This document shows positions 7,855 through 8,331 of a DNA stretch of 40,421 nucleotides, piece by piece. The first letter of the stretch is position 1. Every line of letters begins with the position of its first letter. The position numbers and the translations under genes were made by a program. The stretch is from Thermoclostridium caenicola (GTDB lineage Bacteria; Bacillota; Clostridia; DSM-8532), in assembly GCF_900142095.1 (NCBI RefSeq), contig NZ_FQZP01000019.1, forward strand, positions 1-40,421, in the 5' to 3' direction. The notes beneath the pieces were generated by a model that did no database searches, had not been told where the DNA came from, and saw nothing but the letters and a program-made list of their open reading frames with translations.

Positions 7855-8331
7855 TTATGCCGGTACTTTGCCAAGAATGAAGAAGGAAGCCGCAAAACTG
7901 AAAATGGCGAACAACTCAACGTTGATGGCAAAAATCATGGCATGACCGAATGACTCCGGACGCTTGGCAATCAGGTTGATGCCTGCTGCAGCCACCTTGC
8001 CCTGGTAAACGCCGGAGAGGAATCCAACGATGCCAACAGGGAGGCCTGCCATCAGCAGCATGGTTGCCTGTTCAAGCGTGATATCCGCCGTCACCCTGCC
8101 AAGTATCAGGATGGCAATAACCAGTCCATAAATGGCCTGCGTACTGGGAAGGGCCTGCAGGATCATGGCATAAGCAAATTTCCCCGGATCTTCGGCAACC
8201 ACACCGGCAGCCGCCTGACCGGCAATACCCACGCCTTTGGAAGAACCGAGCGCAGCCACGAAGAAGGCGATGGCCGCACCCAACAAGGCATACGCAGTCG
8301 GTGAAAAGAACAGTGTCATATTTGTGTCCAT
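7855..8331 (-). CDS. ntpK: V-type ATPase rotor subunit K, Na+-type
   Basis: The 158-residue proteolipid consists of two fused helical hairpins (four membrane helices), as in Enterococcus hirae NtpK. The Na+ ligands known from the E. hirae ring are Leu61, Thr64, Gln65, Gln110 and Glu139. All are present here at the same numbers: L61-P-S-T64-Q65 in the first hairpin, Q110-G-K before helix 4 and E139 in NVELFAIF. This strongly suggests Na+ rather than H+ transport. The start has GGAGG ten bases upstream and overlaps the end of ntpI by 16 bases. Confidence 0.95.

Follow-up and report, generated by a model that had tools for sequence, protein, structure and literature searches.

Among characterised rotary ATPases, the closest relative of the enzyme considered here is the Na+-V-ATPase of E. 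hirae (EhVoV1), which is called a Na+ pump in the cell, and which makes ATP in liposomes at 3.2 Na+ per ATP, in the available text of one study (PMC12018189). According to extracts from a second paper, the Na+ site of the rotor is formed by the side chains of E139, Q110, T64 and Q65 and the backbone of residue 61, with Y68 holding the Glu without being a ligand itself, and the complete ligand set is given there as the sequence criterion for Na+ translocation; the same extracts state that Na+ enzymes can translocate H+ when Na+ is absent or scarce (PMC2359735). For T. kivui, an organism found experimentally to be H+-dependent, an excerpted account reports an F-type c subunit with I in place of the Q and A in place of the S/T (PMC4320612).

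The stretch of DNA analysed here (the window, 40,421 nucleotides) carries a complete operon on the minus strand with the gene order H-I-K-E-C-F-A-B-D, in which NCBIfam matches place K third (Table 1). The product of the K ORF is a double-hairpin V-type K subunit of 158 aa, with an ATG start and aggagg upstream. The ORF matched NCBIfam NF005124 (V-type ATP synthase subunit K) with 179.7 bits against a cut-off of 127 and Pfam PF00137, likewise above the cut-off, in two stretches, and phmmer aligned its residues 13-153 without a gap to residues 13-153 of E. hirae NtpK (2bl2; E 6.8e-31, 45% identical). The nearest listed relative, 80% identical, came from a metagenome bin. An AlphaFold model of the protein aligned with 28 relatives (mean pLDDT 95.2, pTM 0.87) has four long transmembrane helices (residues 11-47, 49-77, 86-123 and 125-154), and its best PDB match in Foldseek was the E. 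hirae rotor 2bl2 (TM 0.92), followed by the human and yeast H+ rotors. Because H+ rotors also rank high, the fold cannot tell Na+ from H+; the ligands can.

Table 1. The V-type ATPase operon of the window and the basis for each assignment.
Feature	Position	Strand	Basis or remark
H/G peripheral-stalk subunit	10279..10614	-	weak match, under curated cut-off
I (a) subunit	8316..10277	-	nearest solved relative E. hirae NtpI 8wci_P
K (c) subunit, double-hairpin rotor	7855..8331	-	NF005124, PF00137, 2bl2 alignment, model
E subunit	7150..7752	-	NCBIfam
C (d) subunit	6110..7123	-	NCBIfam
F subunit	5800..6117	-	NCBIfam, 140 bits vs cut-off 114
A catalytic subunit	3936..5717	-	NCBIfam; TTG start as listed
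B subunit	2537..3934	-	NCBIfam
D rotor-stalk subunit	1856..2533	-	NCBIfam
Terminator-like hairpin right after D	1819..1837	-	consensus match only

From I to D the genes are spaced by -16 to 102 bases (I-K -16, K-E 102), and H/G ends just ahead of the ATG from which subunit I is read here. That start is uncertain, being either the ATG at 10277 or a GTG a few codons upstream, and the longest subunit I ORF reaches 10430, overlapping H/G. Subunit I scored 197.6 bits against E. hirae NtpI (8wci_P) versus 79.4 against the Thermus protein, and both conserved membrane-helix arginines are present (SYMRLM, SCRLQY). Membership of the enzyme in the F-type or archaeal classes was considered and ruled out by the NCBIfam V-type matches and the lack of an F-type a subunit.

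Directly upstream of the operon, on the same strand, lies a gene for a membrane GGDEF protein (diguanylate cyclase; 10647-11840, minus), and the operon is also flanked by a lipoprotein-like ORF (411-1754, minus) with no NCBIfam match at 1e-10. Elsewhere in the window we noted a TIGR03915 and TIGR03916 gene pair for a putative DNA repair protein and its radical SAM partner (15615-17625, minus), as well as a fatty-acid synthesis cluster (23109-30188, minus) that includes FapR (29607-30188) and in which fabF, fabG, fabD, fabH, plsX and rnc were named by eye from their translations. The ORFs at 11989-12858 (minus), 13011-14138 (plus) and 19698-20183 (plus) had no NCBIfam match at 1e-10.

The earlier note on this DNA had matched L61, T64, Q65, Q110 and E139 of the K subunit to the Na+ ligands of NtpK, even in numbering; in the gapless alignment the correspondence is exact and extends to Y68. 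We compared these positions in 127 other K subunits, 69 from relatives and 58 from the phylum. Among the 119 relatives' genomes, a K subunit of this type (K1) was called at a match E below 1e-20 in 72, from which 70 sequences were taken: the window's own and 69 from the 71 other K1-bearing genomes, the K1 of G055 and G087 being left out. The 58 were the lowest-scoring, excluding those already taken, of 120 listed K1 matches above 128 bits in a phylum sample of 398 genomes. The next match scored 54.5 bits, and this gap indicates that K1 is a sharply bounded family.

Q65, Y68, Q110 and E139 were unchanged in 127/127 of the other K subunits. T64 was T in all 69 sequences from relatives and in 57 of the 58 from the phylum, with S in the remaining one (pooled, T 126 and S 1 of 127), and position 61 was occupied by L (99), I (22), M (4) or V (2). 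When the window K was included with the 127 others, seven of the 141 aligned columns were invariant (Q65, Y68, G69, P98, Q110, E139 and A142). The chance that Q65, Q110 and E139 would all fall among 7 invariant columns of 141 is ~8e-5 (35/457310, calculated by hand); this three-ligand figure was used since T64 was once Ser, and a value of 2.2e-6 would need all four side-chain ligands to be invariant. A chance match of the ligand set was ruled out by the invariance of Q65, Q110 and E139 in the 127 others. Since the ligands are conserved family-wide, the set is a signature of the family and not peculiar to the window gene. The protein has one carboxylate per double hairpin: residue 63, the hairpin-1 counterpart of the Glu, is S in the window K and G, S or A in 69/69 relatives.

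A further 80 K loci outside the 127 were found with patterns holding T64-Q65 or Q110 and are hence biased; among them T64 was T in 79 and S in one, and the remaining side-chain ligands were kept in 80/80. Two K subunits, L185 and L119, carry a naturally occurring variant of the site in which Ser replaces T64; no others with Ser there were found. We also observed two divergent double-hairpin K subunits, L198 and L218, which form a separate subfamily at about one-third identity and carry a lysine/cysteine loop insert (KKCYMSNKAAP). In the alignment, where they served as contrasts outside the counts, the ligand positions still carry T, Q, Y, Q and E, and position 61 lies in a gap.

H+-type rotors are marked by the loss of at least one Na+ ligand besides the carboxylate, a feature absent from the window K, which keeps all ligands. 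The human 16-kDa H+ subunit, for example, has M, I, I, Y, I and E at positions 61, 64, 65, 68, 110 and 139. A partial set proves no Na+ coupling: when aligned, the Thermus rotor, part of a H+ enzyme, still shows Q and T behind its Glu.

The source genome contains a second complete V/A-ATPase operon, in the order H, C, I, K2, F, E, A, B, D (contig C3:22000-36000; L093 1776-10684), with the B subunit named from its translation alone. Its rotor, K2, has 149 residues and consists of a long N-terminal extension and a single hairpin. When K2 was aligned with NtpK and other rotors, V104, G134 and I135 stood at the places of Q110, T64 and Q65, and just the carboxylate (E133) and the Tyr were retained. 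The same V, G and I were found in 19/19 other K2 sequences, which come from 19 of the 49 other K2-bearing genomes. Without the Na+ side-chain ligands, K2 is a H+ rotor by the published criterion, and the second V/A-ATPase, judged by its rotor, most likely handles H+.

The earlier note had proposed a search of the genome for other Na+ pumps. In the assembly (2.89 Mb, 125 contigs, 99.98% complete), this search returned a single Rnf cluster whose genes run C, D, G, E, A, B (rnfCDGEAB), a Na+-type pyrophosphatase and two Na+-transporting biotin-decarboxylase beta subunits, one beside an alpha end, a gamma subunit and a biotin carrier and the other lone. The pyrophosphatase, the one membrane enzyme of this kind in the genome, matched the NCBIfam family 'sodium-translocating pyrophosphatase' above the cut-off and has its gate Glu at the Na+-enzyme position (DLYESY versus DLFGSY in the plant H+ enzyme), with GNTTAA also present. 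In the available text of PMC9408878, the place of the gate Glu is the criterion separating Na+ from H+ pyrophosphatases, though the Glu position alone is not decisive. We rejected Rnf as proof of a Na+ circuit, since the Rnf ion differs between species, that of C. autoethanogenum being H+ in the excerpted account of PMC7793690. The F-type a subunit (PF00119) had no matches in the source genome (control matched in 9/14 genomes), and no Proton_antipo_M protein, the family that covers such subunits of Ech, Mrp and complex I, was found there (control matched in 13/14).

K1, K2, the F-type a subunit and Rnf were surveyed across the 119 relatives' genomes, which are draft assemblies, and were counted in 72, 50, 61 and 92 genomes, respectively. 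The K2 query was one sequence that a very divergent rotor could escape, and the count of A subunits guards against that. K1 went with Rnf, which was present in 66 of the 72 K1 genomes versus 26 of the 47 without K1 (Fisher p 9e-6) and absent from the other 6/72; the link held with one genome per family (24/27 versus 14/27, p 0.006; 0.0016 as the median when representatives were drawn at random). The F-type a subunit co-occurred in 27 of the 72 K1 genomes, and a negative association between the two (p 3e-4) was lost once each family was represented by a single genome (p 0.15). K1 and K2 occurred together without an F-type a subunit in 30/119 genomes, the source genome among them, and 29 of these 30 had Rnf; within the genus, each of the five genomes combined K1, K2 and Rnf and lacked F. 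A further 13 genomes had Rnf and K1 without K2 or F, 11 of them with exactly one A subunit; G021, where no A subunit was found, and G030, with two, were dropped from this count. In these 11 Rnf-bearing relatives the K1 enzyme was the sole rotary ATPase detected, which makes it the only candidate there for turning a gradient into ATP. G007 and G051 also had K1 alone without F, but no Rnf.

We consider it highly probable that the window encodes a reversible, Na+-coupled rotary V/A-type ATPase and that the second enzyme of the genome works with H+. The earlier note had taken the operon to encode a probable Na+-translocating V-ATPase, a reading that is supported by the ligand criterion, the NtpI-like a subunit and the genome's Na+ pumps. 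What the sequence predicts is Na+ binding rather than flux; the term V-ATPase leaves the direction open, and the note could not see the second, proton-type V/A-ATPase, which changes what the Na+ reading means for energy metabolism. As we picture the mechanism, the K ring would bind one Na+ per four-helix subunit through E139, Q110, T64, Q65 and the backbone at residue 61, Y68 would hold E139 steady, and the resulting Na+ movement, a flux that we infer, would be coupled to ATP. With the E. hirae enzyme as a guide, one turn would involve about 10 sites, or 3.3 Na+ per ATP. Rnf, the decarboxylase and the pyrophosphatase could uphold the Na+ gradient.

Because the E. hirae enzyme is described as a pump in the cell yet makes ATP in liposomes, we read the window enzyme as reversible. 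In a Rnf-bearing cell without an F-type ATPase its most likely task would be to make ATP from the Na+ gradient, a proposal to which we give about an even chance; failing that, it would act as an ATP-driven Na+ exporter. A synthase appears slightly more likely than a pure pump in the source cell. A serious alternative, credible to us but short of even, is that the enzyme is solely an ATP-driven Na+ exporter, as in E. hirae, that keeps cytoplasmic Na+ low, with the second V/A-ATPase serving as ATP synthase or as H+ pump. This would agree with the in-cell description of the closest characterised relative (PMC12018189, available text), with the single carboxylate per double hairpin, which implies few ions per ATP and favours pumping, and with the presence of a second V/A-ATPase that could take on other tasks. 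However, the cell already has Rnf, the decarboxylase and the pyrophosphatase for ion export, the 11 Rnf-bearing relatives have no other rotary ATPase detected, and in vitro EhVoV1 itself synthesises ATP, at 3.2 Na+ per ATP (PMC12018189).

The conservation of the ligands also fits a carrier of both ions, or of H+ at low Na+, given that Na+ enzymes carry H+ without Na+ in the extracts of PMC2359735. We nevertheless find it unlikely that the enzyme is promiscuous and moves mainly H+ under the Na+ concentrations found in its habitat, as a five-ligand site with ~100% conservation beside a ligand-free H+-type rotor would be hard to explain if both handled H+. A plain H+ V-ATPase with inherited but idle ligands seems very improbable: nothing favours it beyond the evidence being sequence only, and ligands are lost in H+ rotors of the same fold (M, I, I, I in the human 16-kDa subunit) and lacking from the F-type c subunit of the H+-dependent T. 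kivui (PMC4320612, as excerpted).

Returning to the Na+-coupled, reversible enzyme, we tentatively suggest that the two rotary V/A-ATPases share chemiosmosis, with the double-hairpin enzyme as a Na+ synthase (~3.3 ions per ATP), the single-hairpin enzyme working with H+ at another gear ratio, and no F-type enzyme; we regard this division of labour as possible and somewhat less than even. Rnf, the decarboxylase and the pyrophosphatase would then drive a sodium circuit, and the proton circuit would be separate.

A Na+ rotor alone is the expectation for the family. The useful part is its pairing with a H+-type rotor: the two V/A-ATPase rotors of the source genome, one of 30 such genomes among the 119 in which no F-type a subunit was detected, mostly with Rnf, differ by the Na+ criterion. 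This opens to testing the question of which V-type enzyme serves such anaerobes for ATP synthesis, and on which ion it runs. Litty and Mueller reportedly described, in 2020, a Na+ A1AO ATP synthase of Eubacterium with a V-type c subunit. A partial literature search returned no paper assigning Na+ and H+ to two V-type ATPases of one bacterium.

Compared with known systems, the window enzyme resembles the E. hirae Na+-V-ATPase in its double-hairpin rotor, which aligns over 141 gapless residues with the ligands and Y68 in place and a model TM of 0.92, and in having NtpI as the nearest relative of its a subunit. The rotors are, however, 45% identical, and E. hirae possesses an F-type ATPase as well (PMC2359735, Table 1, in the extracts), whereas the source genome is without an F-type a subunit. 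It is the second enzyme that is like the V/A-ATPase of Thermus thermophilus (5gar, 6qum), in which a single-hairpin rotor also follows a cleavable-looking N-terminal stretch, but the Thermus rotor keeps Q and T near its Glu, where the source's second rotor has V and G. The overall arrangement is that of Tepidanaerobacter acetatoxydans, which in the available text of PMC4374699 has two V-type operons (G,I,K,E,C,F,A,B,D and b(G),C,I,K,F,E,A,B,D), Rnf and no F-type ATPase; the likeness concerns gene order, Rnf and the missing F-type enzyme, and that text assigns no ions to either operon. The two-operon layout has thus already been published (PMC4374699), and the Na+/H+ split between the two enzymes is our own reading of their rotors. 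The authors of that study conclude, in the same available text, that a gradient most likely cannot drive ATP synthesis in T. acetatoxydans (PMC4374699); the rotor split, together with the relatives in which the K1 enzyme is the sole rotary ATPase detected, argues for revisiting this conclusion.
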